A program made the position numbers and the translations under genes. Shown here piece after piece: positions 6,925-61,702 of a stretch of 64,000 nucleotides of DNA. Every line of letters starts with the position of its first letter. Position 1 is the first letter of the stretch. Origin of the DNA: Sphingomonas radiodurans (GTDB taxonomy: Bacteria > Pseudomonadota > Alphaproteobacteria > Sphingomonadales > Sphingomonadaceae); the NCBI RefSeq assembly GCF_020866845.1, contig NZ_CP086594.1, positions 3,562,001 to 3,626,000 of the forward strand, read 5' to 3'. A model generated the notes under the pieces. It searched no databases. It was not told the origin of the DNA and saw only the letters and a list, made by a program, of their open reading frames with translations.

Positions 6925-6925
6925 A

Positions 6926-8461: not shown

Positions 8462-8473
8462 TCTTCGGCGAGA

Positions 8474-9307: not shown

Positions 9308-9353
9308 CGCCGCAGCTTGTGCGCGCACGTGGTCGGGGCGACAAGCGCGTTTG

Positions 9354-39070: not shown

Positions 39071-39087
39071 TGGTGGAAGGGACTGGA
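39071..39087. repeat. Left attachment site: duplicate of the tRNA-Tyr 3' end
   Basis: TGGTGGAAGGGACTGGA, an exact 17-base copy of 61507-61523, the 3' end of the tRNA-Tyr gene (read on the minus strand as ...CCA). It marks the far boundary of an element inserted at that tRNA, and with the right copy bounds 22.4 kb. Confidence 0.85.
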
Positions 39088-42250: not shown

Positions 42251-42259
42251 GCCTAGACC

Positions 42260-43312
42260 TCAGTCGCCTAGCGCCCAGGCAAGGGGGAGGGTGACATCGG
42301 GGTCCTCGGCCACGCCGCCATCCCGCATGACCGCCGTGTAGCCGAGATCGGAGAGGTTGCGCCTCTTGAGGCTCCGACGGAAGGCCGCGTTGCGCAAGTT
42401 GCCGCCGACTATCGACATGCCGAAAACGCCGAACTCGAGGCGGCCGGGCACCCGAAGGCGGCCGGCGAGCATCGGGAACTGATCCTGCAGATATTTCGCC
42501 GGGCCTGCCGCACGCGTGTCTGGATGGATTGTGTCCCACGCGGTCACGACGACCGCTACCCGCGGTTTAGAGCCGTCCGGACGCTCGCCAAGCGTCACGG
42601 TGAGATAGCGAACGAGTTCGCAGAAGCCAACTTGGGCCGGCAGGCCAACGTCCTGGGTTGAGGTCGCATGAACCTCGGCGTCTGCTAGGATCGGCTCCGT
42701 CGGTCCCTCTTCAGGGCTGACGGCGAGGGCTTTGACTTCGGTCGTGGCGGGTTGACCGGCCAGTGGTCTCACGACGGTCCGCGCTATCTGCTCCCCGTCC
42801 TCGTCCTCGTCTAGGCCGTAATCGGCGTCGTCCTCTTCCGTGTCGTCATCGTCGTCGTCCTCGTGGCCCTTTAGGACCTCTCGCGCCGTGACCCAGTCCA
42901 TCGGTTGCCTGTTCAGTTTCGAGTTCGCGCGTATGAATATGATTGCCGACGAGCATCCCGCTAGCGCGTCGATCCACTCCTGGGGAAGTTCGTAAGTCTC
43001 GAGCGCGCGCTTCCAAAGCTCTCCCGTGATGTCGGGAACCGTGAGGTTCCTGGCGGGGCCGGCGCCTTCGTCGCCGCGCACGCTCAAGGTGAAATCGCGC
43101 CGGGCAGACTCCTCCATGTTACGCTCGGACCGCGGCGCGAACTTGCGCGAGAGCACATGCGAGACCGCCTCGTTCACGTATTCTACGTTCTCCGGCAGAT
43201 GATCGGCCCTGAGCGTCCCTTTCTTCGCCTGAAACGCGAGCCAGAGGCGGGCGATGTAGTTCGTCTTTCCGGAGGCCGGCCCACCGACGAGGATGATCGA
43301 TCCGTCAATCAT
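42260..43312 (-). CDS. P-loop GTPase, double-GTPase 1-like
   Basis: 350-residue protein. G1 (Walker A) is GGPASGKT at 10-17 and the G3-like PDITG at 103-107 fits a GTPase switch II motif. A probable G4-like VTAWD at 266-270 replaces the usual NKxD. An acidic insert of about 24 residues (161-184, E/D-rich with DDDDDD) interrupts the domain. The pattern fits the double-GTPase (DO-GTPase1) family of GAP1 systems. The ATG at 43312 overlaps the stop of the preceding GTPase gene (ATGA), so the two are translationally coupled. No longer frame is supported. Confidence 0.75.
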   Translation of the reverse strand: MIDGSIILVGGPASGKTNYIARLWLAFQAKKGTLRADHLPENVEYVNEAVSHVLSRKFAPRSERNMEESARRDFTLSVRGDEGAGPARNLTVPDITGELWKRALETYELPQEWIDALAGCSSAIIFIRANSKLNRQPMDWVTAREVLKGHEDDDDDDTEEDDADYGLDEDEDGEQIARTVVRPLAGQPATTEVKALAVSPEEGPTEPILADAEVHATSTQDVGLPAQVGFCELVRYLTVTLGERPDGSKPRVAVVVTAWDTIHPDTRAAGPAKYLQDQFPMLAGRLRVPGRLEFGVFGMSIVGGNLRNAAFRRSLKRRNLSDLGYTAVMRDGGVAEDPDVTLPLAWALGD

Positions 43313-44370
43313 GCCCGCCCCCTGAAAGCCTGCAGCCGCCTGTCGCCTTCTTCCGCCTCCGTGTCCGGCCAGAACTCGGCCGGCGGGGGAAGGGCACACA
43401 GCGATCGGTCGAACAGCTTCGCTACGCCGTGTCCCGGCTCCATGTCGTCGCTCCACGAGAAGGACGCGACCGGGGCTAGCTCCGTCTCGAAGCCAAAGGT
43501 GCCGGCGTATGCGGACAGGTCATCAGCTTCCCCTTGCGGGAAAAGCTGGCTGTCCTGCCACGTCGGTACCAGGAAGATTTTGGGGCGGCGATCTTCCAGG
43601 AGGTCAGCGAGGCGCTCGATCAGCACCTGAGCGTCAAAGCGCGCCCTCGGCACCTTGTGGTCGTTGGCGAACTGTCGTCCGTCCACCATCAGCCAGATCA
43701 CACTCGCCGACCTGAGGAAGAGGAGCCGGTCCGCGTCATTCCGCCCGATCAAGGCCTGCGACCATTCTCCAGGCAGGTCTGGCAGCAGGACGTCTAGCAG
43801 GCGATCGTCCGCGTGGCGCCAAAGACGGAGGTGAAGGAACCCGGCTTCTCGGTCGTTCGACAGCGTCGTATGGCTGGTGATCTGTTCGGGCGGACTTCCC
43901 TTCTGCCACGTCCTACTCGCGCCCGTTATTTCCTCAAACGCGCGTAGCGTGTCGCTGTCGGCGTATGAGTAGCCATCGAATTGGTCCTTCGACAGCAGGA
44001 GGTAGGCGCTGACGAGCGCCGCGGTCTTCCCCGCACCGGCAAGCCCCACGATGCCGACCATGCACGTGGGGCGGCTTTCCATCATCGCGTTGGCCTGCTC
44101 GATGCCGAGTGTTCGGCTGGCGGGCAGGAAGGGCAGGTCGTCGTCCGGTGCGGTCAGGACGGCTCCTCCGACGGAAACCGGCGCCAAGGCGCGCGGTGTC
44201 GCTTCCTCTTCTACGCCGGCGTCCACGTCGCCTAATCCGTTGTCTTCTTCCAGCTCGTCGCCTTCGTCCGTCAGCTCAGGCCGATGGGGACAATTCTCCG
44301 GCGGATTTCCGACGACGCAGGATCGTGTGGCGTTGAACGTGCAGTTTGTGTTGGTGCAGGCGCCCCGCAT
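43309..44370 (-). CDS. P-loop GTPase, double-GTPase 2-like, with N-terminal cysteine cluster
   Basis: 353-residue protein. The N-terminus has four cysteines (C5, C10, C18, C27) with a NPPENCPH sequence, perhaps a small metal-binding module. Acidic linker residues (about 32-57) follow, then G1 GLAGAGKT at 109-116 and G3-like LPDLPG at 196-201, and a WQD-type G4-like sequence (VPTWQDS, 268-274). This fits the second GTPase of the pair. The start at 44370 is the first ATG giving the cysteine cluster and its TGATG junction overlaps the upstream gene stop by one base. The long open frame to 44772 overlaps that gene and is not used. Confidence 0.75.
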   Translation of the reverse strand: MRGACTNTNCTFNATRSCVVGNPPENCPHRPELTDEGDELEEDNGLGDVDAGVEEEATPRALAPVSVGGAVLTAPDDDLPFLPASRTLGIEQANAMMESRPTCMVGIVGLAGAGKTAALVSAYLLLSKDQFDGYSYADSDTLRAFEEITGASRTWQKGSPPEQITSHTTLSNDREAGFLHLRLWRHADDRLLDVLLPDLPGEWSQALIGRNDADRLLFLRSASVIWLMVDGRQFANDHKVPRARFDAQVLIERLADLLEDRRPKIFLVPTWQDSQLFPQGEADDLSAYAGTFGFETELAPVASFSWSDDMEPGHGVAKLFDRSLCALPPPAEFWPDTEAEEGDRRLQAFRGRA

Positions 44371-45398
44371 CACTCTTCGCCGCCGAAACGGGCCTCCATC
44401 GCGATGATCGACGCCTCGAGCAGGGCTCGAGCACCCCAGCCGCGGGCGTCCAAAGCCGGTGTCGATCCGTCGACATCGCCGGTGGTAGCCAACGCCGCCA
44501 GAAGCGGGAAGACCGTTGGATGGTTTGATGGCAGCGACTGGTCCGGGCCGACGGCGAGGCGCGCGCGGTCCTCGCCCAAGGCAGTGACTAGGACTGGCAG
44601 CGGGATTGCCTCGGTCGGACCCACGAGGCGCAGGACCGCGTGCCGGAAGCCGTCGCCCGGCAGCCGACGGAGCATCCTCGCTCCTTCGAGGCCGGCGGCG
44701 ATGGCACGCGTCGGCGGGTCCTTCGCCGCAAGCGGACAGTCGAGGACCGCGCTGTAGTCGGTGATCACCCACCAGAGGAAGTCGATCTCCTCGCGGTCCA
44801 GCTCCTGATTGTTCTTCAAGGCCGCGATGACGGGCGCCGTCGCCTTTCGGTAGGCGTTGTTCGCCCGCGTGCCGGCTGTATCGGCCTCGGGAATGGTCAG
44901 GGTGCCAACGTCCGGGACCTCATGGCGCGAACGGGAATCCCGGGCGACGGCGGCGACCCTGGCGCGGCATGCGGCGATCAGCTTTTGGCGGAGCTCTTCG
45001 ACCTTGGCGTTGTCGATCTGGTCCTGAAAGGTGAGCGCGGACCACAGCGCGGCGGCCAAGGCGTCGACGCTGGACCAGGCAGATCGCCCGACAACTTGCT
45101 GCTCGACCAACGCGAGAGCCGCGACCGCCAGGCACACGGTCCCCTGCAGTTCGTTGCCCGTGAGGACGAAAGCCGGACTCTCGTTGCTGATCGCGGTCTG
45201 CACCTCGGCGGCCAGCGGTTCGGGAAGTGCCTTCTCCCTGAAGCTGTCGGCGATCGCGCCTGCGGCTTTGATCGCCCCGCGCGTGGATAGTTGGCATAGG
45301 AGCGTGCGTAACTTGGCGACCGCCTTGTTTCGTGCGGCGACATCGGCGTCGGTCGGCTGAGCCCAGATAATCTGGGAGTGCTTTGCCATTATGCTCAT
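44370..45398 (-). CDS. Helical GTPase-system protein (GASH-like)
   Basis: 342 residues, almost entirely helix-forming and rich in Ala, Leu and Arg, with no catalytic motif. It sits between the phosphoesterase and the two GTPases, where the GTPase-associated helical (GASH) protein occurs in related systems; the resemblance is from position and helical composition, not a signature I can quote. Its ATG overlaps the phosphoesterase stop by four bases (ATGA). It may link the effector to the GTPases. Domain identity needs a profile search. Confidence 0.6.
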   Translation of the reverse strand: MSIMAKHSQIIWAQPTDADVAARNKAVAKLRTLLCQLSTRGAIKAAGAIADSFREKALPEPLAAEVQTAISNESPAFVLTGNELQGTVCLAVAALALVEQQVVGRSAWSSVDALAAALWSALTFQDQIDNAKVEELRQKLIAACRARVAAVARDSRSRHEVPDVGTLTIPEADTAGTRANNAYRKATAPVIAALKNNQELDREEIDFLWWVITDYSAVLDCPLAAKDPPTRAIAAGLEGARMLRRLPGDGFRHAVLRLVGPTEAIPLPVLVTALGEDRARLAVGPDQSLPSNHPTVFPLLAALATTGDVDGSTPALDARGWGARALLEASIIAMEARFGGEE

Positions 45399-46783
45399 TT
45401 CGTGCCGTTGCCCTTTCCGCTCGTCCCGAGCATCCCCTCAATCTCGGCCACCTTCCCCAGTCGGATCGCCCGCCGGAACAGCCGTCGCTCCATCGCGTGG
45501 TCGATGCTGCCTGACAAATGCTTGACTAACCCGAAGGTTTTAAACGCTCCCAGCCGCTGACCCTCGGATAGGGTCTGGAAGAAGCGGAGCTGCAGGTCGC
45601 GCACGTCCTGCGTGGGTTCAGGCTCAGGGGCTACCTCTGTCTGGGGGGAGTCGGTCGCGTCAGTAAGGGGTGTGGCGGTGGTTTCGCCTGGACCCACCTG
45701 CGCCGTGAGATCGCGCGACACTGTCTGCGACGGCTCCTCGACCAGCTCTGTAACGGCTTGGCCATCTGAAGTGCCATCGGCGGGTATCGGTGTGCCGCGG
45801 AAGTTAGGCGAAGCCAGAACCTGTCTTTCACTGCGTCCATTCAGGAAGGCCTCGTCGCGCTCAAAGCGCGCCATGTCCGGGTTCCAAGTCCGTGGATCGA
45901 TGGTCACGGCGAGGGCATCCTGCTCCTCGTCCCACTCGAACGTCAGGATGTTATACTTATAGGTGAACTTCTCGTCGATTTGGTCCGGGGCCGTCGCGCC
46001 CGCCGCCAGCATCATGAGCTGGCAGCCGTCTTCCACGTCCTCGACGTCGAGGTTCGGGAAGTGCTCGTGGCCAGAGATGAAGACTCGCGCTCGGCCGCGG
46101 AGATACCCTTGCGCCTTCTTCGAATCCTGGAACCAGTTGAGCGGATGATGCGAGAGGACAACGTTTTCGACACCCTCTTCGATCGGGATCTGCCGCTGCC
46201 GCTGCCCGAGAATCAGCTTTCCCTCTTCCGGATGACCGGAACAGATGAGCGCGGAATTGAGCCGGACAAATCGGATCGACCTTCCTGGGGCCAGCTCGAG
46301 CGTCGCGCTCTTGGACACGCCGCCGTTCAGGTCGAGCTCGCATCGGTAGTCGAGGGCGAAGCCCCTGTATGCGTCGAAGCGGCCGTAGAGCGCGGCGCAG
46401 TCATCGGGATTGTCGAGATGGCGGTCCAGCCAGCTGTCGCCGCCCTCGCGCACCGAGAACAGGACGCTGTCCATCGTGTTGTCGATCTTGGCTCGGTCCA
46501 CGTCATGGTTGCCCGGGATCAGCTGGACGTCGGTTCGATCGCATCCGACGGCGTCGGTCAGGTCGGCGAGCCAGAGCGCAGCCATGACGTATTGGTGGGC
46601 CTGGCCAGAATACGCGATATCCCCGGTGACGATCACACCGTTAGCCGTGCAGCCCAACTTGGCTAGCTGAGCGCGCACGTCGTCGATCAGACGGGCCTTG
46701 GCATCCAAGTTCGCAGCATCCGTGCCGCCGTCCTTCTCTTGGCCGAAGTGGATGTCCGAAAGGTGCACGAAGACCGACTTCAA
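45395..46783 (-). CDS. Calcineurin-like metallophosphoesterase, first gene of the GTPase cluster
   Basis: 462 residues. The metal-binding motifs are complete: D10/H12 (HLSDIHFG), D55 (TGDIAYSG), GNHDVDR at 91-97, H212/H213 (LSHHP) and GHEH at 238-241. A disordered Ser/Thr/Pro/Glu-rich stretch (about 340-395) leads to a C-terminal helical module (from about 395: LQLRFFQTLSEGQRLGAFK). That module could be the adaptor linking it to the GTPase proteins. Candidate effector, cleaving nucleotides, nucleic acids or phosphoproteins. It heads the operon, and the ATG at 46783 begins directly with the phosphoesterase fold. Confidence 0.85.
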   Translation of the reverse strand: MKSVFVHLSDIHFGQEKDGGTDAANLDAKARLIDDVRAQLAKLGCTANGVIVTGDIAYSGQAHQYVMAALWLADLTDAVGCDRTDVQLIPGNHDVDRAKIDNTMDSVLFSVREGGDSWLDRHLDNPDDCAALYGRFDAYRGFALDYRCELDLNGGVSKSATLELAPGRSIRFVRLNSALICSGHPEEGKLILGQRQRQIPIEEGVENVVLSHHPLNWFQDSKKAQGYLRGRARVFISGHEHFPNLDVEDVEDGCQLMMLAAGATAPDQIDEKFTYKYNILTFEWDEEQDALAVTIDPRTWNPDMARFERDEAFLNGRSERQVLASPNFRGTPIPADGTSDGQAVTELVEEPSQTVSRDLTAQVGPGETTATPLTDATDSPQTEVAPEPEPTQDVRDLQLRFFQTLSEGQRLGAFKTFGLVKHLSGSIDHAMERRLFRRAIRLGKVAEIEGMLGTSGKGNGTK

Positions 46784-49514: not shown

Positions 49515-50597
49515 TTAGATCGGAAAAAGAACCTTCAAGCGGTCGACCGTATGCCGCCACTTCGGCGTCTTTGGCGCGCACACCGAGTTCTGGTTCCCGA
49601 ACATGCCGACCTCCTGCACCGCCTTGTCGAGTGTGACAGTGGCGACCCAGTCGATTGGTACGAAATACTCGCAGCGATCGGAATCGTCGATAAACTCGCT
49701 ATGGTAACTGGCGCGGGTGAGGGCGGTTGCTGCGGGGATGGGGACGCTGTCGTTATCCGGCAGCTCGAAGTCGCGGAACGCCACCGGCTCGCCCCGCACG
49801 ATGCCGACGCTCACGAAGCCATAGCCGGGCGCCTTCACCCATATTCGGTCGCCTGGGCTGAGCAGGCGAAGCGTGCCGCTATACCAAGTGCCGCCGCCCG
49901 CGCTGATGAAGCCATTTCGCCGCGCCTCGTCCCAAGAGCGGCTCTCACCATGGCCGAACGACACGTAATATTCGCCGTTCCACGGTTCGCGATCGCTCGG
50001 ACGGGCATCGACTGTAGCCGCCACCTGTGTCTCGATCGGATCGATCAGCCACGCGCGGCTCAGCAACTGGCCGGCGTCGGTGTCGAACACCTGGAAGCAG
50101 AGCACGTTGATGGCGATGCCGCGCTTGGCGAGATAGGCTACGATCCGTTCGGAGCTCGCATCGAGGCTGGCGGCGACGATCACGACCTGATGGTTCTGGT
50201 TCAGTGTCGTCTCGTCGAGCAGCATGCCGAAGCGCGCGCGGAAATCCTGCGCCAGATTGCCGCCGCCTGTGAAGCGCGCATAGACGCGGCCGACCGCCTC
50301 GGCATCGAGCGCCTCTGCCCAGGTCGCATAGTCGATCGCTTGCGCCACCACTTCACGAGGCGTGCGGCCGCGCTTCAACTCGATCAGGATGAGCGCGCCG
50401 TCGGGCGCCATGGCCAGCAAGTCGATCCGGCCGCCAAAGCCGGTATCCTCCTGCCGGCCGATAATCATCCATTCGTCCGACAGGATCTGCGGCGCGGCGA
50501 CGATCATTTATTCGAGCAGCGCCTCGCTTGACAGCGCGGACTCGCGTAGCGCAGTCGGCGCGCCGTCGACTTGCCAGATGCTGTGACGGATTGGCAT
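49515..50597 (-). pseudogene. NucS/DUF91-like nuclease gene interrupted by an in-frame stop
   Basis: The gene begins at 50597 (MPIRHSIWQVDGAP) two bases after hsdS, and after 29 codons hits TAA at 50508-50510. The next codon is ATG (50505-50507), which opens a further 330 codons. The second part has GGRIDLLAMAPDGALILIELKRGRTPREVVAQAIDYA, a PD-(D/E)xK-type nuclease core (D, then E-L-K) as in NucS/DUF91 proteins. Related full-length genes, recalled from memory, have a glutamine or acidic residue where the stop is. Either the gene is inactivated, or reinitiation at the TAAATG junction makes a shortened protein. Confidence 0.7.
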
Positions 50598-50599
50598 GA

Positions 50600-51904
50600 T
50601 CAGGCTACCGGCGCAGGGCGACGCCCGCGTTTAGGTTTCGGTACGGCGACGCACTCGGCGCGGATGCGATCGAGCAGGACGCTCGCCGGCTCGTCATTCG
50701 GGTCCTGCGGCACCAACTCGCCGCGGAACGCCTTGGCGAGGATCGCCGCTTCGAGCCGGTCAAGCATCGCGATGGCGCGGGCGGCTTCGGCTTCGAGACG
50801 GTCAGCACGGGCGAAGATTGCATCGAGGGCGGCAGCGATGCGCTTTTGCATTGCCGTGGGGGCGAGCGGGGTCGGGATCGCATTCAAGGCGTTTTGATTG
50901 ATCTTTGGTAAGACCGTTCGGCCCTCCTGTCTTGTAGCCAGCCAAGTAAATTGCGGCGACAGCATCCAATACATTAGGTAACGCGCGTCGCACCGTGGGT
51001 TAATCGGATACATGTCAGCGCTGCATCCACCCTCGAAATTGACCAAGACCACTTTGCGTAGGTAAGGCCGAATTTTCGAATAGATCAGTTGGCCGGCGTA
51101 AAAGCGGTGCTTTCCGCTTATAACCCCATCTTCGGCAATAGTCTGAAAGGGGAGGAGTACCGGGCGTCCAGATCGGATGTGATTTGGTGCGATATGTGGC
51201 AACTTGAGGATTGAGGTAGGCGGAACGAGATTGCTGGCGATCTCTCCGGCCTCTTCGAACGCCACAGTCTTCCAGCCCAGCCGTCCCCCATCAGCATCCG
51301 GAAAGAGCCTGCCTTCAAACGCTCGTTCGAGACCGGTAACCCTTAGGCGTTCGGCTAGCACCGGTACCCGATTCAGTGCCGCCCGCGCGCGGGCGAGGCG
51401 AGCGGTCATTGCGTCAAGCTTCACGACGATGCGGCGCTGTTCGGCTAAGGGTGGTAGAGGAATAAAGATGTCCTCAATGACATTCGAACTCACATTTTGC
51501 TGGGCGGCGCCTTGACCATGGCTGGAAAGGGGCTCCCGGAAAGCTGCGGAGCTCAAGAAGCGATAGAGATAGCCATCCTCGGAAAGCGATGTGGCAGGCT
51601 GTAGCTTTGCAACGCGCTGATTGAGCGCCGCAGGTAAGTGGGCTTCCTCAACTCTAGCCACTCGGCCAATGTTCCCCGTTAACGAGGTGAGAATGTCACC
51701 CGCGGCGAGCTCAAACCTGCTCGTAGCGGTCGAGAGTGACACAAACCTTGGATTATTGAGATTGATTTTGCTATCTTGGACATTGCCGATCCTTATGAGG
51801 AAGTGCCCACGATCCTGATATTCCCCGCTTTTGAAAGCAAAGCCGCTTATAACCTGTAGCAAATCTCCAAGCTTCGCTCTTTCCCATTTATCCGGCAGTG
51901 TCAC
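50600..51904 (-). CDS. hsdS: Type I restriction-modification specificity subunit
   Basis: 434-residue HsdS with two target-recognition domains (about 1-160 and 195-370), each followed by a helical spacer with the repeated type (LPPLAEQRRIVVKLDAMTARLARAR and APTAMQKRIAAALDAIFARADRLEAEAAR). The C-terminal VPQDPNDEPASVLLDRIRAE is the usual end. It picks the DNA sequence to be methylated or cut. Its ATG overlaps the hsdM stop by four bases. Confidence 0.93.
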   Translation of the reverse strand: MTLPDKWERAKLGDLLQVISGFAFKSGEYQDRGHFLIRIGNVQDSKINLNNPRFVSLSTATSRFELAAGDILTSLTGNIGRVARVEEAHLPAALNQRVAKLQPATSLSEDGYLYRFLSSAAFREPLSSHGQGAAQQNVSSNVIEDIFIPLPPLAEQRRIVVKLDAMTARLARARAALNRVPVLAERLRVTGLERAFEGRLFPDADGGRLGWKTVAFEEAGEIASNLVPPTSILKLPHIAPNHIRSGRPVLLPFQTIAEDGVISGKHRFYAGQLIYSKIRPYLRKVVLVNFEGGCSADMYPINPRCDARYLMYWMLSPQFTWLATRQEGRTVLPKINQNALNAIPTPLAPTAMQKRIAAALDAIFARADRLEAEAARAIAMLDRLEAAILAKAFRGELVPQDPNDEPASVLLDRIRAECVAVPKPKRGRRPAPVA

Positions 51905-53382
51905 TCCCCCGCCTCCATGACCCGAACGTCCTGCGCGCCGCCCTCTATTTCTTCGATCAATTCCCGCACCTCCACTATCGCGTTCGCCAGGTGCAACTCG
52001 ATTGCCGTCGCAATCTCTTCGGGTGATTGCAGTCCGTCCTCCGGGTCACCGCTCGAATCTTTGAGCCAACCAATGTCCAAATTGTCTCCCCGCGTGGCGA
52101 TCTCCTCGCGCGTGAAGCAACGGAAGCGGCCGGTCTCGCCCTCGTCACTCCGCATCGCGCCGCCATTGGGATCGTCACCAAACATCGTCACGAAGTCAGC
52201 GAGGTCGGCGGCTTTGAACGGGTTGGTCTTGCCGTACGACGGCATGTTGGCGCGCGCGTCGTAGATCCACACCGCTTGCGTCGCGTCCTCGAGCGGCGCT
52301 TCCTCATCGCTACGCGTGAAGAACAGCACGTTGGTCTTCACGCCCTGCGCATAGAATATGCCGACTGGCAGCCGCAGAATCGTGTGGAGGTTGCACCAGC
52401 TCATCAGCCGCTGGCGCAGCAGCTTGCCGCGGCCATCGTCGAATAGCACGTTGTCGGGCACAACCACCGCTGCGCGCCCGCCGCGCCGCAGCGAGCGGAT
52501 GACATGTTCGACAAAGGGCAGCTGATAGGAGGAGACTCGATCGGTGATCGTCAGATCGTCGCGCGTCGGCGGGCCGCCCGCTGGGCCGAACGGCGGGTTG
52601 GTCAGGATCAGATCGGCATTCTTGAACTTAATATCCGAACCGCGCGGGCTGAGCGTGTCGGCGAGATCGAGGTGATCGGGATCGATGCTGTGCAGATGCA
52701 AATTCATCTGCAGCAGGCGGAAGGTGTCGGGGACGTTCTCGACACCGCGCAACGCCTGGTTGAGCTGGAACGCCTGCTGCTTCGGCGCCAGCTCGAAATA
52801 GCCGTCGGTCTGCTCACGCATGTATTGGTCTGCTGCGATCAGGAAGCCGCCGGTGCCCGCCGCCGGATCCTGGATCACTTCGCCAGGCTGCGGCTGCATT
52901 AGGCCGACCATCACCTGGATCAGCACGCGCGGCGTAAAATACTGCCCAGCGCCTCGCTTGGTCTCCTCGGCCATCTTCTGCAGCAGGCCCTCATAGGCAT
53001 CGCCAAACGCATCGCGCTCCTCGCTGAACCAGTGCAGCCCGTCGATCGCGTCGATCAGCTTGCGCAGGTTGATCGGCTCGCGGACGATGGTCGCGGCGTT
53101 CTGGAAGATCGCGACGATCGAGCGGTCGGCGATCTTGGTGCCGTCGCCCAGCTCAATCAGCGCTTGGCGATAGCGCGTGAGTACCTCGGTCTCGTTCGCC
53201 GCCTTTAGCGCGCCCCAGCGATATTGCTCTGGGATGCGACTCTCGTCCTTCTGCTCGGACGCCATCTTGAGGAACAGCAGATAGGTCAGCTCGGTGACAT
53301 ATTGCTGGTAAGTCACGCCATCCTTGCGGAGCAGTGTGCAAAGGCGCCAGAGCTTGTTCACCAGATCGGTGGAGGGGTTCAT
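51901..53382 (-). CDS. hsdM: Type I restriction-modification methyltransferase subunit
   Basis: 493-residue N6-adenine methyltransferase. HsdM N-terminal helical domain (1-130), SAM-binding DPAAGTGGF at 172-180, and catalytic NPPF at 262-265. The domain order and length are normal. It pairs with hsdS and with hsdR, which lies upstream and 27 bases away. The start at 53382 (MNPSTDLVNKLWRLC) is the family N-terminus. Confidence 0.95.
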   Translation of the reverse strand: MNPSTDLVNKLWRLCTLLRKDGVTYQQYVTELTYLLFLKMASEQKDESRIPEQYRWGALKAANETEVLTRYRQALIELGDGTKIADRSIVAIFQNAATIVREPINLRKLIDAIDGLHWFSEERDAFGDAYEGLLQKMAEETKRGAGQYFTPRVLIQVMVGLMQPQPGEVIQDPAAGTGGFLIAADQYMREQTDGYFELAPKQQAFQLNQALRGVENVPDTFRLLQMNLHLHSIDPDHLDLADTLSPRGSDIKFKNADLILTNPPFGPAGGPPTRDDLTITDRVSSYQLPFVEHVIRSLRRGGRAAVVVPDNVLFDDGRGKLLRQRLMSWCNLHTILRLPVGIFYAQGVKTNVLFFTRSDEEAPLEDATQAVWIYDARANMPSYGKTNPFKAADLADFVTMFGDDPNGGAMRSDEGETGRFRCFTREEIATRGDNLDIGWLKDSSGDPEDGLQSPEEIATAIELHLANAIVEVRELIEEIEGGAQDVRVMEAGE

Positions 53383-53409
53383 TCGGCTTCTTTCATCATG
53401 CAGGCCCGG

Positions 53410-56400
53410 TCACGCGGCGATGCCGCTGCCCCAGATCGCGGCGTTCAGATCCTTGAGTACTTCCCCTAGCCCGGAGTCGAACTCGCGGTCGACCACCGCA
53501 AAGCCGCCGGCCTGCGCAAACAGTGGATCGGACAGGATCTCGGGATCGCCGACGGGCTGCGCGCGCAGCACGCGGCCGATGCGGTTGAGCCACTGCTTCT
53601 GCTTGGCGGACCAAGCGCGGCTTGCGATGATCCGATGGACGCCGTTGTCGACGCGAGCCTCGTAGGGGACGAGCGGATCGCCGAGCGCCGCCTGGCGAAC
53701 AAAACCAATGATGTGCGCGGCGATATCGGCATTGCGCGCGCTGCCATAGGCGCGGCGGAGCGCTGCCTCGGAGAAGCCCTTGCCGTCAAGCAGGATTGCC
53801 AGCTCCTTCAACTCCTTGCGGGTTAGCTCGCGCGGGCGCTGGGTGGCGGCGATCATCGCCGGCACCGCATTCATATTCGCGCGGACATAGGCCTCGAAGC
53901 TTTCGATATAATCGCTCGGTGTCGCCTTCTCGCCGAAATTGTCCTCGACCGAGACGAGCTCGTCGTCATGCTCGGAGATGTAGATGCCGTCGCGCTTGCC
54001 CGCAGGATTCGCCGCGTCGAGCACTGTCGCGAGCGACGGGTGTTGGCGGAACAGCGCGATCGTCTCGGCGGGCGTCGCATCCTTGAGCCGGTCGGCCAGC
54101 GCGCCGAGCGGGCCGAGCACAGTCTCCAGCGCCTCACGGCGATCCTCGCTGATATATTTGGTGCGCTGGCGCAGCTTGACGACGATCTGGTCGCGGACGA
54201 ACGCGCGGTCCTCGTCGCTCGATGCCCGCTCGATGTCGCCGACCAACGTCGCGAAGGTCAGGCCGGGATCGACCACCACAGGGCGCATGTCGGTGACGTC
54301 CTGCAGGTTGGCATTGATGTCGACCGCATCAAAGATGCGGAAATACTCCTTGCCGATCTCATCACACCGCCGCGTCGCGCGGCCAATCATCTGGTCGTAG
54401 AGGATGCGGCTGTTCACCCGGCGTACGAACACCAAGTTGGTGATCGCGGGCACGTCAATGCCGGTGGTCAGCAGATCAACCGTGACGACGTACTTGGGGC
54501 GCGGATCGTTCTTGAATGCCTTGATCCGGTCGAGCGGCTTGTCGATCGATCCAGTGATCTTTTCAACCAAGTCGTGTGGCTGCGGGCCATAGTCGGCAAT
54601 CAGTGCGGCGCGAAGTTCTTCGATGAGTATATCCGCATGATCGTCGCGGGCGGCGAACAGTAGCGTCTTGCCGGGCTGGTCAGGCGGGCACTCGGCGGCA
54701 ATTGCCTCGGCCACCGCGCGGTTGAAGGCGCGGGTGTAGACCTTCTTGTTGAACTGGGCGATTTCGAAGTCGACCTGATCCTCGAGATCAAACAGGTCGA
54801 TCTGCCCGGTGCGCGGGTCGAAGATGTTCACCTCCTCGCCCTGGTCAAAGCTGATGCCGGTCTGGCTGAGCGCAGTGGTAATGCGGCGCGGCGGGCGATG
54901 GTCGATCAGGAAGCCGTCGATCACCGCTTGCCGGTAGCCGTACCGAAATACCGGCGGGCCGAATATCTCGCGGGTGTGGAGCGCCGGGGTCGCGGTCAGG
55001 GCGACCTTCTTCGCATCAAAATAGTCGAGGACGCGGCGATAGGCAGACAGATAATCGTCGAGGTCACGGAAGCCGAGGTCGTCCTCACGCAGTTCGGCGT
55101 CGAGCGTGTAGCCGCGATGGGCCTCGTCGACGATGATCAGGTCGTAGGTTCCCGGCGTCGGCCGATCCGCGCTGGGGTCATCAAAGACGCGACGGACCAT
55201 GGCCTGCACGGTTGCGACCTGCACACGGTCGGTCGCCTCCGGGAACTTGCATGCCATGTCGGCGACGGGGAAGACTTGGTCGAACTTGTAGAAGCCGTTG
55301 GTGTCGGTCGTGCTCATCGCGTCGAGCGTCTGGCGCCCCAGCGCGTTGCGATCGACGAGGAAGAGAATGCGGCGAAAGCGCTGCGTCCGAAGCAGCTCGT
55401 ACATCAGCGCGATGGCGAGCCGCGTCTTTCCGGTGCCGGTCGCCATCGCCAGCAGAATATGGTCCTGCCCCCGCGCAACCGCCTCTTCTACCGCCTCGAT
55501 CGCTTCCTTCTGATAGGGGCGCAAACCCGTGACCCCGAGCTCTCGATCGGCGACGATCTGCGTGTCCTCGCAAATCCGCTGTTCAAGCTTCTCGGTGAGA
55601 TCCCGCGGGCTGAACCATTCGCTTAACGCGCGCGGTGCGGAGCGAGTGCGTGCGTCCCAGAACCAGATCCCCGACTTGGTAGCGAGTTGCTTTATATACG
55701 GGCGGCCGTTGGTCGCGAAGACGAGCGGCACACGGAAGCGGTCGTCGCCGTCCGCCCACGGTCCTCCAGACGGGAGTTCATCTAGCGTGAGCGTGATGTC
55801 GCGAGCATAGCGCTTACCCTGTCCAATTCGGCCAGGCACATCGCGGACCTGTCGCTTTGCCTCAACCAAGCCAACACAACGGCCATCCACGAATAGAGCG
55901 TAATCAACAGGACCGCTCCTTGTCGGCCATTCTGCAATGGCCATCGATTTTCCGTACTCGGGTCTCGCCCCGGCGGCGTGGCGCAGGACGACGCTGTCGA
56001 CGATCCACCCCGCGTTCCGCAGCTGCTCATCGATGATGACGCGAGTGGTCGGCTCATCGAGCTCGGCTTGCTCTGCACGTTCCGCGCCGATGCGGGCAAG
56101 CAGGTCCAGCTGCTGCGGCGGGGCCGCCATCGCTTGCGCTTGGGTTGATGCCAGCGATTGCTCCGCTGCGCGAAGCGCGGCTTCGGTCTCGGCGGCATAA
56201 CCCTCCCAGAAGGCTCGGTCCTTGGCCTCCCGGCTCGCCTGCTCTGCCAGGAGCGTTCGCTCGGCCTCGGCTTGCTGAGCCGCAAGACGGGCCTTCGCCT
56301 CAGCGTCCGCCCCGCTGGCTACGACTTTGCGGAGCGCTTCCAGTTCGAGACGAAGCGCGGTGGTCGCGTCCGCCGGCGGGGTGGGCGGGATGAACGCGCC

Positions 56401-56802
56401 CGGCTTGAACGAAGGTGCCGTCTCATAAGTCTGATGAAACCAGACTCCGATCGCACGTGCTATTTTCAGGGAGGTCAGCGCCTCAGAAGCCGTCCCTCGG
56501 TCCTCATGCGCCGCGACGTTGCCGATCTGCTTGAGGTGGAAGAACAGGTCGGCCATCTCGCGCGGCAGTACCGAACGAGCCCGGAGCGTCCGCAGCACAT
56601 CGTCGAAGGTTGCCGCGCCGCCCGATAATAGTGCGTGGCGGGCGGCGACATCCTTGGCAATGAACTCGGCAAACTGGCGTAATTTGACCAATGCGGTAGG
56701 AGGATCGCTGGCGAAGTAACGCTCTGCCAGGGCGCCTAATTTTGTCAGCTGGGGGCTATGCGCTTCCAAAAAGCCAAAATTGCTGAGCACGTCCCCCATC
56801 AT
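53410..56802 (-). CDS. hsdR: Type I restriction endonuclease subunit, DUF4145-type N-terminus
   Basis: About 1130 residues. The N-terminus (about 25-110, LRQFAEFIAKDVAARHAL... with NVAAHEDRG) matches the DUF4145 helical domain found on some HsdR proteins. A coiled coil follows (about 150-225), then the nuclease core with D302 (VDYALF) and E316-A-K318 (LVEAKRQ), Walker A ATGTGKT at about 456-462, DEAH at about 561-564 and helicase motifs III-VI (LTATPAL, IGRATRR). The C-terminal helical region is that of HsdR. The ATG at 56802 is preferred over a GTG at 56808. Confidence 0.93.
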   Translation of the reverse strand: MMGDVLSNFGFLEAHSPQLTKLGALAERYFASDPPTALVKLRQFAEFIAKDVAARHALLSGGAATFDDVLRTLRARSVLPREMADLFFHLKQIGNVAAHEDRGTASEALTSLKIARAIGVWFHQTYETAPSFKPGAFIPPTPPADATTALRLELEALRKVVASGADAEAKARLAAQQAEAERTLLAEQASREAKDRAFWEGYAAETEAALRAAEQSLASTQAQAMAAPPQQLDLLARIGAERAEQAELDEPTTRVIIDEQLRNAGWIVDSVVLRHAAGARPEYGKSMAIAEWPTRSGPVDYALFVDGRCVGLVEAKRQVRDVPGRIGQGKRYARDITLTLDELPSGGPWADGDDRFRVPLVFATNGRPYIKQLATKSGIWFWDARTRSAPRALSEWFSPRDLTEKLEQRICEDTQIVADRELGVTGLRPYQKEAIEAVEEAVARGQDHILLAMATGTGKTRLAIALMYELLRTQRFRRILFLVDRNALGRQTLDAMSTTDTNGFYKFDQVFPVADMACKFPEATDRVQVATVQAMVRRVFDDPSADRPTPGTYDLIIVDEAHRGYTLDAELREDDLGFRDLDDYLSAYRRVLDYFDAKKVALTATPALHTREIFGPPVFRYGYRQAVIDGFLIDHRPPRRITTALSQTGISFDQGEEVNIFDPRTGQIDLFDLEDQVDFEIAQFNKKVYTRAFNRAVAEAIAAECPPDQPGKTLLFAARDDHADILIEELRAALIADYGPQPHDLVEKITGSIDKPLDRIKAFKNDPRPKYVVTVDLLTTGIDVPAITNLVFVRRVNSRILYDQMIGRATRRCDEIGKEYFRIFDAVDINANLQDVTDMRPVVVDPGLTFATLVGDIERASSDEDRAFVRDQIVVKLRQRTKYISEDRREALETVLGPLGALADRLKDATPAETIALFRQHPSLATVLDAANPAGKRDGIYISEHDDELVSVEDNFGEKATPSDYIESFEAYVRANMNAVPAMIAATQRPRELTRKELKELAILLDGKGFSEAALRRAYGSARNADIAAHIIGFVRQAALGDPLVPYEARVDNGVHRIIASRAWSAKQKQWLNRIGRVLRAQPVGDPEILSDPLFAQAGGFAVVDREFDSGLGEVLKDLNAAIWGSGIAA

Positions 56803-57104
56803 GGACACATAGCACTGGAGGCGTTTGGCTCAACCCGGGAGGGCTCTCCGTATCAATTCCGCTCGACCGTTGAACCGGAACGAAACAGGTCTGTCGAATT
56901 GCTGCTTCGCTGCTGCTAAAGCCGCTTAGCGAAACTCCCAAATCGGGGAACCGGCAGGAGATTGGGAAAGTCGGTAAACGGGCCCTTCGATCCTGGCCGA
57001 CATAGAAATTCTCAAGCAAATACAGCGGCAAGAATACTTTTGTAGCGTCCATCCGCAGCATGCGGGTAATGTGAGAGGGCTTTTTGATTGAAGCGGTACG
57101 CGCG

Positions 57105-58313
57105 CTAGAGCAAGCTTGCGAGTGCGTTGCGGCGGTAGAAATGGAGTGTTGGTAGCTCGGCGCGTACCGTTTCAATCAAGTCGCCCTGCTCGGTCGGTTT
57201 GACGGAAGCGAAGGCAAGCTCAGCGGCGTGTGCCGTGGCTTCGATACGATCGGCATCACCGAACCGAACCTTGTCGACTAGTATCCCGCCCTCCGCGATG
57301 AAGACGGCATGACGAACGGCAGTGTCCCGCATCCTTGGCGGTACTCTCCCGACGATCTCTGCGATCGGTCGACACTCCCGACCAAACCGACTGAGCGCTA
57401 GACGACCTTCGCTGGTATGCAGATCAATCGCTGCGGCCGGGAAGCCTGCAATCATACCCGTGTCAGGTAACGGCGTCCGAGTGATCGTGATCGTTGGCTC
57501 GTCCTTCACGATCGCCCCGATCGGCAGCATTGAGACAAACATTGCATCACTGATTCGGGCGGCGGCACGATTGGCGACGTAGTATAGGATGAGCGGGTCG
57601 TGCCGAGCAGACATTAGACGGAAGAAGTCGCGACGGTCACTAGCGAGCGTCGGCATCGTGACTCCGCGAAAGCTCGACGTACCGGCCAGTAGCCAAGCGG
57701 CGACCATCCGCTCGGCACTAGTAGCGTTCATGTCGAGTGCGGCAGTGGAAAGTTCTTGGACGCCCGCCCTGGCTAACCGTTGCTTCAGGGCATCAAGTGT
57801 ACGGTCATAATCCGCGATCGAGATTAGGTCGCACGCCAATCGCGATTTCGGGCTAATCGCCAATAGATAGGCGAGATACGCCGCGAGTTCGTCGGTCGCA
57901 CCGTGCTCTCGCATGGCCTTGTTACCCATCGCCGCCAGCGCCATCCCAACAGCTAGCAGGTTGCCGATGCCGACATCCTCGACCGCGCAAACTGCCAAGC
58001 GCCGAAAGACCTGATCGGTGTCGAGGCCGCATCCCTGCTGGGCAAAGCGCATTGCGCCTTCGGCATCGCCGCGCCGGATCGACTTCTGCAACGCGCTGAT
58101 GTTGATGAAGCGGTATGTGGCCGGGATCGGAGCGGGTAGGGGCGGTGCTTTGAACGATGCCCGGCCAGCGGCAAGGTGCTCGCAGAATAGCCGATCGAAG
58201 CTGGCGAGGATTTCGCGACGGACAAGGCCGTCGGCGCCAACCATCCGGTCACTGATTGGTCGGTATAGGCATGGCTGGTGAAGCTCGGCCATCGAGGCCC
58301 AGATATCGAACAT
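57105..58313 (-). CDS. RarA/MgsA C-terminal-like helical protein without an AAA+ domain
   Basis: 402 residues. Residues 72-120 (SALQKSIRRGDAEGAMRFAQ and RRLAVCAVEDVGIGN) match the C-terminal helical domain of RarA/MgsA, where the family reads SALHKS-R and ASEDVG. No Walker A or AAA+ domain precedes it. The rest of the chain is Ala/Leu-rich with no known motif. The GGAGA sequence seven bases before the ATG supports the start at 58313. A perfect inverted repeat lies just upstream. It may be a defence or regulator component, but the role is not known. Confidence 0.6.
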   Translation of the reverse strand: MFDIWASMAELHQPCLYRPISDRMVGADGLVRREILASFDRLFCEHLAAGRASFKAPPLPAPIPATYRFINISALQKSIRRGDAEGAMRFAQQGCGLDTDQVFRRLAVCAVEDVGIGNLLAVGMALAAMGNKAMREHGATDELAAYLAYLLAISPKSRLACDLISIADYDRTLDALKQRLARAGVQELSTAALDMNATSAERMVAAWLLAGTSSFRGVTMPTLASDRRDFFRLMSARHDPLILYYVANRAAARISDAMFVSMLPIGAIVKDEPTITITRTPLPDTGMIAGFPAAAIDLHTSEGRLALSRFGRECRPIAEIVGRVPPRMRDTAVRHAVFIAEGGILVDKVRFGDADRIEATAHAAELAFASVKPTEQGDLIETVRAELPTLHFYRRNALASLL

Positions 58314-58323
58314 AAAAAGTCTC

Positions 58324-58339
58324 CGAGGTTGTTACCTCG
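58324..58339. promoter_or_regulatory. Inverted repeat before the RarA-C-like gene
   Basis: Perfect CGAGGT-TGTT-ACCTCG, ending ten bases before the ATG of the gene at 58313. It could be an operator, perhaps for the XRE protein encoded nearby, or a short RNA hairpin. No second copy was found near the XRE gene. Confidence 0.4.
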
Positions 58340-58396
58340 AAGGCGTAGGGGTCTTGACTCGACTGGATAGGAGTATTTGATTAGCTGACGGGCGCG

Positions 58397-58936: not shown

Positions 58937-59079
58937 CCATCGGTCTCCTGAAGTTAATTGCCAGTTCGTCAGAAGCGTAGCCACCGAGAACGAGCACGCA
59001 AGTGGTTTGCGGATGATCTCAATTCCGTAAGTCTGATCGGTGTCTCACTTGTGCACACGTCCCTACTTCGGGGGACAGA

Positions 59080-59415
59080 ATGGCGGAGCTTCGAAAACGT
59101 TTTGGGAGATTGGTTGCTGCCCACCGAAAGCGGCGGCGGATGACCCAGGAGGCGCTCGCCCAGGCTTCCGAGCTTTCCGTCGATATGATCGGCCGGATCG
59201 AAGCAGGCGCGACGGGTGCCAGTTTCCCATCCATTGAGCGTCTGGCTACTGCACTGAATATTGACCCGGCGCAGCTCTTTACCACCGAGCTTGCAGCTGA
59301 CGCGACGACCCGCCCGGTTCTAGCGGAGCTTACCGCACGGCTCGCCAGCTTGACCGACCGCGACATCAAATGGGTGGATCAAGTTCTCGACGCGGCCCTA
59401 AAGCCCCGGGGTTAG
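59080..59415 (+). CDS. XRE-family transcriptional regulator
   Basis: 111 residues with one helix-turn-helix domain (about 6-65: RRRMTQEALAQASELSVDMIGRIE, SIERLATALNI). The GGGGA ribosome-binding site is six bases before the ATG. Its stop overlaps, by three bases, a convergent small frame. It probably controls a neighbouring gene, possibly the reverse transcriptase locus or the zinc-ribbon group. Confidence 0.9.
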   Translation: MAELRKRFGRLVAAHRKRRRMTQEALAQASELSVDMIGRIEAGATGASFPSIERLATALNIDPAQLFTTELAADATTRPVLAELTARLASLTDRDIKWVDQVLDAALKPRG

Positions 59416-59624
59416 CGATAGGCAAGTGTCGCCATCACTGCTTGTCCGGCATGACTCCTATTGCGGGGAGGGCAGGCGAACAGCTTGATCTCACGGTGAG
59501 CTAGCCATCGAAATTCAGCGTAGCGCGGCACCATCACGGTCTGAGGGCCAAGAGCGACTGCGCGGGCAACTGCAGCGAGACCGTTGTTCAAATTTCCCGT
59601 TGCTGCTCCAACTGCATCAAACAC
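59412..59624 (-). CDS. Small ORF downstream of the reverse transcriptase
   Basis: 70 codons from a GTG at 59624, with a coding look (FDAVGAATGNLNNGLAAVARAV, then RWLAHREIKLFACPPRNRSHAGQAV). It lies in the same direction as the reverse transcriptase and about 100 bases behind it. I recognise no family. A 9-base inverted repeat brackets it (AGCGATAGG at 59414-59422 and CCTATCGCT at 59715-59723). It may be a small partner protein, or part of a structured RNA locus. Confidence 0.35.
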   Translation of the reverse strand: MFDAVGAATGNLNNGLAAVARAVALGPQTVMVPRYAEFRWLAHREIKLFACPPRNRSHAGQAVMATLAYR

Positions 59625-59701
59625 GCCGCATATGCGGAGGATCGGTCGCGGCTTGGGACCATCTCATTCGCCCACCATTGGCATAAGATCCCGGGTCGGT
59701 A

Positions 59702-59720
59702 GATAGGCGTTATACCTATC
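59702..59720. repeat. Short hairpin after the reverse transcriptase gene
   Basis: GATAGG-N7-CCTATC, ending one base before the reverse transcriptase stop codon in the reverse sense. It overlaps the right arm of the longer 9-base inverted repeat. Perhaps a terminator-like or RNA structure; there is no T-run. Confidence 0.4.
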
Positions 59721-59721
59721 G

Positions 59722-60879
59722 CTATGATGGCTGCTGAGAAGGGTGTTTTCCGCTCAGCATCAAAGATTTGCGAAGCGCCCGAGCGCCACTTAGGTAGTGA
59801 GCTCCGATGTTCGTATCGACCATAAACAGCTGGTTCGGCACCCGCTCCCACACTGGAAACGCGCTTACCCATGCATCGCGGTACGCATCCGACTCTGCGG
59901 CTTCTTCCTCAAAGGTGACCCTAGCAACCCTGTCAACAAAGCGTAGTTCAAAGCGGTCGAATGCCTTACGCGACGGGGTCACGTAAACACCTCCGCCGAA
60001 CCGTCTCTTCCGGCGGCGAAGTTGGTAGCCGAGAAAGTTTATAGGCTGGCCTAGGTGAGCAACTCGAGACTTTAGGAGCAGCGGCCCGGCAGGGTGAACT
60101 CCAAAGAGTTCATGCAGGTTCTGTTCGATCGCCTTCGCATGCGCCTCGCTGGGCGCTCCAACAAGAATATCGTCGGCGAACGAGAGCACGGGGGCGTCAT
60201 CGATCTGGCCGATCGACATCTCGATCAGCTTGCCGGCGATGTAGCTGGATGCGAGCGACCCCTGCGGAAGCCCATGACGGACCGCTGGCTCGAACGCTTC
60301 TGTGTGGATAACCTCCATAGTGTCACTGACAAGAATGCAGTGTTCGATGACACTCCTCGGCAGCGGGATGGTTGCTAGAAGCCCCTCACGATTGAAAGAG
60401 CCAAAGCAGTTCTCAATGTCAGCTGTTACAAACCATCGTGGTCCTCCCTTTTTGGTAGCTAGTGCCATGAACTCCTCAACCGCGCGGGTTCGGCCCCAGC
60501 CACGTTGGGCGTAGTCGAACCTCAGCGGACCCCAGATCGCCTGAACAATCAGAACCGCAAGCTTCTGGAGGGCTCTGCGACGAAGGCCAAAGCTTGTGAT
60601 CGGGCGACGGCCGCCTTCCGGCTTGCGCTTCAAGTAGAAGTAAGCCGGCTCGCCGCAATCAGCACGGGGGTTCAGACCAGCCGCCAACTCCCGCGCGGCC
60701 TGCATCGACATCGCGTCCTCGGGGGCGAGAGCATGCGAGCCGAGGACCAGACAGCAGAGCCTAGCATCCACGGACCTCAACAGCTTCCGTACGACCGCAA
60801 CACGCTTTCTCGCATAGTCGTCTGGGGTGTCCGCGAGTTTGTTGAGGAGCGTCAGGAACTGCCCGGCGTGCTCCTGCAA
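59722..60879 (-). CDS. Reverse transcriptase, unclassified defence-type
   Basis: 385 codons. The reverse transcriptase motifs are all present: VTADIENCF (catalytic Asp at 154), GLPQGSLAS (203-211), catalytic FADD at 234-237 and NFLGYQL (291-297). The FADD instead of YADD, and the lack of retron NAxxH and VTG signatures, argue against a retron. It may be one of the unknown-group or DRT defence reverse transcriptases. The start is weak: TTG at 60879 has no ATG nearby, and an internal ATG at 60711 would give 329 codons. The gene overlaps the truncated integrase frame by 28 bases. Confidence 0.85.
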   Translation of the reverse strand: MQEHAGQFLTLLNKLADTPDDYARKRVAVVRKLLRSVDARLCCLVLGSHALAPEDAMSMQAARELAAGLNPRADCGEPAYFYLKRKPEGGRRPITSFGLRRRALQKLAVLIVQAIWGPLRFDYAQRGWGRTRAVEEFMALATKKGGPRWFVTADIENCFGSFNREGLLATIPLPRSVIEHCILVSDTMEVIHTEAFEPAVRHGLPQGSLASSYIAGKLIEMSIGQIDDAPVLSFADDILVGAPSEAHAKAIEQNLHELFGVHPAGPLLLKSRVAHLGQPINFLGYQLRRRKRRFGGGVYVTPSRKAFDRFELRFVDRVARVTFEEEAAESDAYRDAWVSAFPVWERVPNQLFMVDTNIGAHYLSGARALRKSLMLSGKHPSQQPS

Positions 60880-61331
60880 CTCCGCGCGTATCTGCCGCTT
60901 TGATCCAGCGATGCCTGCGCCTGCGTAAGCACCAACCCCGTGAAGTTAACTTCAGCGACTTGGCCGCGGAGATCTCTCTCGACCTCCATGGAGAGGGCAA
61001 GTTGCTCCTCCTGCTCCATTTCCGAATTGGCGGTTCTCGGCACGAACCCGCCTCGCCGTTCAGTCTCGTCGATCAGATCGTTGAAGCAGAGTTGTATGAC
61101 GAGCTGCGCTTCAGCTCGCCCATAGGCCTGTGTCACAATCACGTCGAATGCCTCCATCACCCGAGCCGCGTAGCGGGCCACGAGCCGACGAGCGTGAGAC
61201 GGCGAGCAGGTCCCGAGGGATCGCCGGATCTCGCTTAGTTCGAGCCGCGGCCGAACGGCGGCAGGCACCCGCATGCGCAGGTGGAAAACCCCGTTCCGGC
61301 GTTGAAGGTGTGGAGCACGGCTTCCGCTCAT
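60852..61331 (-). pseudogene. Truncated tyrosine recombinase (integrase) N-terminus
   Basis: About 160 codons starting MSGSRAPHLQRRNG. They resemble the DUF6538-type N-terminus of tyrosine recombinases (VFHLRMRVPAAVRP, LEIRRSLGTCSP, RYAARVMEAFDV). The reading frame ends at 60852 before any catalytic domain (no R..H-x-x-R..Y). The homology fades near QASLDQSG and the reverse transcriptase starts in another frame there. The element integrase has therefore lost its core, and the island is probably no longer able to excise by itself. Confidence 0.8.
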
Positions 61332-61423
61332 CGCGGCGCACCCCGGCTGCGGCCCCACCAACCTTGGACCGACCCTGCCGATACTGTTCCCTCGGCAGCA
61401 AGGGACGGCGCGAGGCCGTGTAT

Positions 61424-61441
61424 GTACCACGTTGTGTACCA
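61424..61441. repeat. Two GTACCA motifs near the right end
   Basis: GTACCA at 61424 and 61436, twelve bases apart, between the integrase remnant and the tRNA-Tyr gene. They match the three motifs at the left end and may be recombinase arm sites. Confidence 0.45.
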
Positions 61442-61506
61442 CAACGGCGGCGGAGGGGAACGGCAATCTCGTAAACTTTTGAGTTGCCGTCTAAAAGCGC
61501 GAAAAA

Positions 61507-61523
61507 TGGTGGAAGGGACTGGA
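61507..61523. repeat. Right attachment site within the tRNA-Tyr 3' end
   Basis: The 17-base sequence TGGTGGAAGGGACTGGA is the last part of the tRNA-Tyr gene (minus strand, ending CCA). An exact copy lies at 39071-39087. Integration at the 3' end of a tRNA gene keeps the tRNA intact, as seen here. Confidence 0.88.
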
Positions 61524-61592
61524 TTCGAACCAGTGTACACTTGCGTGGGCAGATTTACAGTCTGCTGCCTTTAACCACTCGGCCACCCTTCC
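61507..61592 (-). tRNA. tRNA-Tyr (anticodon GUA)
   Basis: Class II tRNA with the long variable arm. The minus strand begins GGAAGGGTGGCCGAG and ends TCCCTTCCACCA. The anticodon loop is CTGTAAA, giving GUA. It serves as the attachment site for the island to its left. Confidence 0.95.
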
Positions 61593-61702
61593 ACCGGGCC
61601 GCTCGTCAAAGCGAGGGCGCGCAATGCCGAAGCGGGCGCGGCCTGTCAACGCGCTGTCATCATGGTTGCGCCTGTCGCGGCTGGCGCATAGCAGCGGCCG
61701 GG

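Follow-up and report, generated by a model that had tools for sequence, protein, structure and literature searches.

A reverse transcriptase clade and its possible part in the excision and integration of tRNA-targeted defence islands

The window analyzed here, a 64,000-nucleotide stretch of the Sphingomonas radiodurans genome, contains a reverse transcriptase (RT) gene among tRNA, integrase, and defence genes, and the question is what kind of RT it encodes and with which of its neighbors that RT belongs. The bacterial RTs known so far work in introns, retrons, and DGRs, in CRISPR adaptation, and in abortive or DRT defence. The original prediction, made from the letters and their open reading frames, described an RT locus of unclear class without retron signatures and looked downstream of the gene for a partner, in the form of either a small protein or a structured RNA used as template. 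We addressed the question by comparing the RT, its flanks, and the surrounding island with those of its relatives; the features of the window are collected in Table 1.

Table 1. Features of the RT locus and its island, in window coordinates
Feature	Coordinates	Strand	Basis
tRNA-Tyr (gta), integration target	61507..61592	-	tRNA prediction and Rfam
att repeat copy within the tRNA-Tyr 3' end	61507..61523		17-base exact repeat
DUF6538-type tyrosine integrase, N-terminal quarter	60852..61466	-	DUF6538 58.6 bits; ATG at 61331
Reverse transcriptase (RT)	59722..60879	-	RVT_1 56 bits; frame of 385 codons from TTG
10-base inverted repeat	59413..59724 (arms 59413-59422 and 59715-59724)		Chance level
70-codon GTG frame	59412..59624	-	Open reading frame listing; nothing indicating a gene
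XRE-type HTH regulator, convergent with the RT	59080..59415	+	HTH_31 45.8 bits; PADLOC control protein 39.5, capH 34.6
402-aa protein	57105..58313	-	MgsA_C match just under cut-off; 43% to L007 relative
Type I restriction system, cargo	50600..56808 (R 53410-56808, M 51901-53382, S 50600-51904)	-	PADLOC
PDC-S11 candidate defence protein, cargo	49515..50507	-	PADLOC 447.5 bits
GTPase-associated system, cargo	39605..46783	-	Pfam: GAP1-N1, DO-GTPase1, DO-GTPase2, GASH, metallophosphatase with GAAD
att repeat copy, far island end	39071..39087		17-base exact repeat

As far as tested, the RT gene fits no named class

The RT is real, and as far as tested it fits no named RT class. Its Pfam match to RVT_1 lies well above the profile cut-off of 29.6 bits, and all the core motifs that had been predicted, including FADD, are present in the clade alignment (A, FVTADIE; B, GLPQGSLAS; C, FADD). 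It was the sole RVT_1 match of its own genome at E 1e-4. The frame is open up to 60945, with no in-frame ATG or GTG ahead of the TTG. As far as tested, the unclear class also held: every PADLOC RT model scored below 46 bits, including UG17 at 32 bits, a model for which PADLOC gives no cut-off and beside which no true member was scored. An AlphaFold2 model of the RT with one relative had a mean pLDDT of 33.

We considered whether the gene is the remnant of a group II intron ORF, since it shares RVT_1 with motifs A to C with these RTs and its best matches point their way. The best match among solved structures was a maturase RT (49 bits), and a plasmid search returned 972 records, all at less than 60% identity, of which the 20 listed were all annotated as group II intron RTs (22-30% identity). 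However, the group II maturase model gave 55.6 bits against a cut-off of 300, and Rfam found no intron RNA in 56500-61700 of the window or in six clade loci, which makes an intron remnant very improbable. The contention that this is not a retron likewise stood as far as tested. RT_I-B, the sole retron-type PADLOC model listed for this RT, scored 13 bits; no NCBIfam retron model matched it up to E 0.1; no retron RNA was found by Rfam, which may lack some retron RNAs, in 56500-61700 or the six clade loci; and three RTs that we read by eye as retrons fell on a separate branch of the tree described below. Thus, neither the group II intron nor the retron placement with a matching RNA, which the original prediction had named as grounds for giving it up, was seen. 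Direct repeats of at least 24 bases, a search that diverged or gapped repeats can escape, were absent from 56500-61600 of the window and from 1500-9800 of the locus of a relative (L007) whose RT is 37% identical over 385 aligned positions; accordingly, this search yielded no DGR template/variable repeat pair in either interval and no CRISPR-array-like repeat in the window interval. No RNA template for the clade RT was found in these searches.

The segment 3' of the RT offered no partner. The predicted frame exists, in the same direction as the RT, and the inverted repeat around it has the predicted spacing of 292 nt; its arms are 10 bases rather than the 9 originally given, and such repeats are no rarer than chance provides. 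Among 335 window segments of 381 bases, 44 contain a perfect inverted repeat of at least 9 bases at a similar distance, and 10 contain one of at least 10. The predicted folding of the segment was ordinary (z = +0.31, with 58 of 100 shuffles at least as good), and over 56500-61700 Rfam found the tRNA alone, with nothing in the downstream segment. The 70-codon frame had no Pfam or PADLOC match up to E 1 and none among plasmids; across 140 genomes, two matched, its own and one at E 6e-4, where the match runs antisense to an alanine racemase read by eye. Its G+C by codon position (.70/.53/.51) showed no coding-like signal when set against that of the RT (.66/.46/.66), and two neighbors differ from the frame too. 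When window 56001-61600 was compared with 11 clade loci by BLASTN, nothing matched this segment, so the conservation that a working partner calls for did not appear. Despite the open frame and the inverted repeat, the RT is very unlikely to have a structured RNA or a small protein from 59412-59724 as its partner, and we rejected the frame, the repeat, and the proposed RNA on account of the chance-level repeat, the shuffle-like fold, and the missing homologues. In three relatives (L007, L027, and L117), what lies within ∼70 bases of the end of the RT frame is a resolvase frame. What is telling about the context of this RT lies upstream, in the integrase and HTH gene, together with the resolvase of intact relatives.

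Relatives of the RT and their gene company

RTs of this clade are rare among the genomes searched. At E 1e-20, 3 of 296 genomes of the order matched, the window's own included; a three-sequence profile matched 12 of 397 genomes of the family at E 1e-15 (own and seeds included), and wider profile searches at E 1e-12 matched 22 of 385 in the class and 27 of 299 in the phylum, mostly with far weaker scores. A further search added one relative (2 of 196 genomes, the centre included). The three-sequence profile run on genome contigs recovered the G285 locus only and nothing in viral contigs; a search for close relatives by exact peptide patterns from the single protein gave none in genome or viral contigs, and plasmid searches with three other clade RTs gave no match. 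For comparison of the loci, we fetched all nine non-seed rows of the family profile search and 20 stretches from the class and phylum searches, the latter chosen, mostly for best scores, from 70 match rows that include the own row and repeats.

In the resulting tree, 13 relatives and the window RT are separated, by a branch with 97/93 support that recurs in 96% of 200 bootstrap trees, from 18 other, unclassed RTs and the three by-eye retron RTs. The tree carries a long-branch warning, and UG/DRT and DGR references were compared with the clade by profile score alone. Left out of it were three short or second RT frames (of L091, L092, and L105) and L029, a near copy of L027 that is also excluded from the 13. 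One family, which is the most searched, accounts for 11 of the 13 relatives. In 6 of the 14 clade RTs (L023, L024, L025, L027, L028, and L117), an Asn replaces the second Asp of motif C; these six are spread over more than one branch, so that part of the clade may lack ordinary polymerase activity. The by-eye retron RTs (L119, L120, and L121) come from genomes that also bear a clade RT, and each lies beside a possible effector frame.

What these RTs share is their company. A tyrosine integrase was found at 10 of the 13 relatives and at none of the 18 other RT loci, an HTH_17-type, excisionase-like gene at 8 of 13 versus 0 of 18, and a serine resolvase within 5 kb of the RT at 9 of 13 versus 0 of 18. 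These counts come from models built from some of the 13 loci. As a control, the 18 loci are imperfect on three counts, being drawn from other families, reaching a contig end in 8 cases, and having been scanned with an integrase model made from integrases of this family. Where Pfam was asked, it gave the same labels above cut-off, namely DUF6538 in the window, Phage_integrase and Resolvase in L007, and HTH_17 in six loci. Whole-genome counts with PF00239 found 47 resolvases in 14 genomes, between 0 and 7 per genome; under uniform placement, 0.14 of the 13 relatives would be expected to have one within 5 kb of the RT where nine do (P ∼5e-16), and the more distant resolvase of L023 is not counted. 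Of the fetched stretches, those of 9 of 13 relatives (Tyr, Glu, Ala, Ser, or Leu) and 2 of 18 controls include a tRNA gene, and both the tRNA and the type of integrase vary among members. The start of the RT overlaps the stop of the preceding frame (as ATGA, TGATG, or TTGA) in 8 of 12 relatives, L118 being left out of the scan as its contig begins inside the RT, versus 4 of 18 controls, one of which (L092) sits at a run of N; the difference is modest. At six loci the overlapping frame is the excisionase-like HTH gene.

The company is incomplete at some loci and its order varies. There is no resolvase within 5 kb at 4 of the 13, no integrase hit at 3, and no HTH_17-type hit at 5, and at L088 the HTH gene is the sole partner with a hit. 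By eye, a distant frame of that locus resembles an integrase; having no model hit, it was left uncounted. The resolvase lies before the RT in L022, is divergent in L024, and is convergent in L027, L028, and L117, and in L118 the HTH gene follows the RT. Two loci, L025 (7134-7706) and L089 (7099-7605), have a longer protein without an HTH_17 hit between integrase and RT; that of L025 is HTH-like by eye, with a stop that overlaps the RT start, and that of L089 has a sub-threshold HTH_50 match. On a Sphingomonas parapaucimobilis plasmid (L156, NZ_CP155757.1), a related integrase and HTH_17 pair occurs without an RT, from which it follows that integrase and HTH gene can do without one. Downstream of that HTH gene, in the place of the RT, is a 456-aa orphan protein (3625-4995). 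The orphan has distant relatives in Vibrio, Aeromonas, and Pseudoalteromonas phages; when it is aligned with six phage proteins, the D..H, R..K, and H-D-S columns are invariant, which by eye we take to recall the palm of a family-A/T7-type polymerase. A profile search of solved structures gave no family-A/T7-type polymerase among the matches listed.

The island at tRNA-Tyr and the damage to the window copy

The RT belongs to a defence island of 22.4 kb and is found at the end that carries the integrase. The tRNA side of the island was matched by 52 of 61 genomes (51 without its own). In all 19 of the relatives' loci fetched for this comparison, the window's own excluded, homology breaks at 61503-61507; four of them match again at 35.8-38.0 kb, two of the four through the tRNA-Gly alone. 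Together with the 17-base repeat, this break and resumption mark ∼39.07-61.5 kb as the inserted stretch, and the island thus shows insertion at a tRNA 3' end, direct att repeats, and an uninterrupted site in relatives. The GTPase-associated part of its cargo consists of five genes, encoding GAP1-N1, two double-GTPases, GASH, and a metallophosphatase-GAAD protein. The 402-aa protein is common to two tRNA-Tyr islands, that of the window and that of L007 (1913-3094; 43% over 356 aligned positions).

At L007, the order of genes is tRNA-Tyr, integrase, HTH_17, RT, and resolvase. The original description of the window locus, whose RT frame and motifs were confirmed, missed the part of a DUF6538 integrase that lies upstream of the RT and beside the tRNA. 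This fragment aligns over 156 aa, at 44% identity, with residues 3-158 of the L007 integrase frame (581 aa) and ends near the last of these, so that only the N-terminal part is left and the catalytic part is missing. Neither an HTH_17-type gene nor a serine resolvase gave a model hit in the window, which therefore lacks the full module, and we take both genes as lost from this copy. RT homology begins about ten residues past the L007 start codon. Relative to L007, ∼1.7 kb is missing, comprising most of the integrase, the HTH gene, and the usual start of the RT, and a single deletion of that size would account for all three losses.

The integrase and RT frames overlap for ∼90 bases (60945-60852) in different reading frames. 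A frameshift within this overlap could join the DUF6538 part to the RT and make a new, DNA-bound RT, and the want of an ATG or GTG ahead of the TTG is in keeping with such a fusion. Against it, the integrase and the RT are separate frames in all 10 relatives that have an integrase, and the deletion explains the overlap of the frames; a working fusion is improbable. Given the missing module parts and the missing resolvase, the RT of the window is most likely a relic on an island unable to move by itself, unless the TTG start or a frameshift still yields a protein.

A candidate part of the mobility module

The two loci that bear most directly on the role of the RT are L027 and L029, which come from two genera. 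A 4.2-kb block, which runs from tRNA-Leu through the integrase, HTH, and RT genes to the resolvase, is 98.1% identical between them, whereas in the flanks identity falls to 76-79% or no match is left. The L027 element, 8.4 kb in all, runs between 56-base copies set 8,414 bases apart and carries IetAS as cargo; in that place L029 has two frames without a PADLOC match. The differences between them are spread over the RT (22 of 1440), the integrase (13 of 1137), the spacer (13 of 758), and the resolvase (24 of 600), and the 22 RT differences, few as they are, give a dN/dS of 0.27. In the compact L027 form, the HTH gene overlaps the RT start and 12 bases separate the RT end from the resolvase frame, leaving no retron-sized non-coding stretch directly at either end of the RT. 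Comparison of the two loci indicates that integrase, HTH gene, RT, and resolvase move as a unit beside different cargo.

In the main rival reading, the RT serves defence, as a distant DRT/UG or Abi RT or a retron-like one, and is carried along at the integrase end with no mobility role. Defence genes are indeed near clade RTs: Gabija at L008, IetAS at L027, type I restriction in the window and at L007, a Druantia-type methylase at L117, and a DrmMI/IIG-like gene at L089; two L029 frames and one L007 frame among the RT neighbors run through PADLOC had no match. Because integrases often have defence genes as neighbors, the position of the RT does not by itself prove a mobility role. For the 12 clade RTs scored with PADLOC (all of the 14 but L117 and L118), no listed model exceeded 62.4 bits, and the hits include UG17, UG4, and Drt3a at 23-55 bits, UG17 and UG4 being among the nearest named models for part of the clade (27-55 bits). 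The retron model St85 matched 3 of 10 members weakly, the best at E 2.8e-5. Furthermore, the window RT frame is still open, although the HTH gene, the resolvase, and all but the first part of the integrase are gone. On the other side, in L027 and L029 the cargo differs while the four-gene company of the RT stays; the gene overlapping the RT start in six loci is excisionase-like and no known effector; and the company persists across ∼20-37% identity. The UG scores are weak as well, since L099, an RT outside the clade and one of 9 of the 18 outside RTs run through PADLOC, surpasses clade members with both UG17 (179 bits) and UG4 (146 bits). The retron comparison has the same two faces: an RT in a defence island with a few weak model matches, set against the lack of an Rfam retron RNA, the overlap of the RT start with the preceding stop, and the separate branch of the by-eye retrons. 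The myRT study (PMC8934634) gives SLATT_5 as the usual neighbor of UG17 and fimbrial genes as that of UG4; neither integrase nor resolvase occurs as a word in the text consulted. On balance, a defence gene without a part in mobility is possible, and we hold it to be the less probable reading.

We lean toward the reading that this deep, undescribed clade of RTs belongs to the excision/integration module of tRNA-targeted defence islands. The module would be laid out as tRNA, tyrosine integrase, small HTH gene, RT, serine resolvase, and swappable defence cargo, with variable order and orientation. The proposal draws on what can be read from sequence, namely the clade, its gene company, the tRNA sites, the att repeats of the window and L027, the co-transfer of the module as one block beside different cargo, and the overlap, in many members, of the RT start with the preceding stop. 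The HTH_17 gene would be the excisionase, and the RT would be made together with it when the island excises. The RT may then act as the element's own polymerase on the nucleic acid of the element, for example by making DNA from an element transcript or by finishing or copying the excised form. Weighing against membership in the module are the Asn variants of motif C, the integrase-HTH pair without an RT, the incomplete company, and the variable order. Among the matches listed in the open PMC literature (titles and abstract starts), there was no description of a module of integrase, HTH gene, RT, and resolvase.

The closest working parallel is the pipolins, which PMC7385651 describes as integrative elements with a primer-independent PolB (piPolB) as resident polymerase. 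By that account (PMC7385651), pipolins resemble the RT module in their tRNA target, att direct repeats, tyrosine recombinase with an excisionase-like neighbor, resident polymerase, and variable cargo that includes restriction systems. They differ in that an RT here stands in place of piPolB and a serine resolvase is usual here, and a role of this RT in replication would be conjectural. No PolB was found among the subset of island frames run through Pfam and PADLOC.

An RT and a tyrosine recombinase also occur in one element in the DIRS/YR retrotransposons of eukaryotes. The likeness ends there: the elements described here are bacterial tRNA-targeted islands with an HTH gene, a serine resolvase, and large cargo, and nothing points to an RNA intermediate. 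It is a more speculative idea, and one we think doubtful for now, that integrative elements use an RT of their own as a mobility polymerase, with an excisionase-coupled RT copying a transcript or processing the excised form. If true, islands moved by tyrosine recombinases would include a reverse-transcription step and would be a bacterial counterpart of the elements that combine tyrosine recombinase and RT.

These data suggest that some bacterial islands carry an RT as part of their moving machinery. An RT clade tied to an integrase and a resolvase, by gene company, by overlap with an excisionase-like gene, and by co-transfer, would extend the roles of bacterial RTs and bring reverse transcription into the life cycle of defence islands, and the compact 8.4-kb element of L027 makes the mobility idea directly testable.
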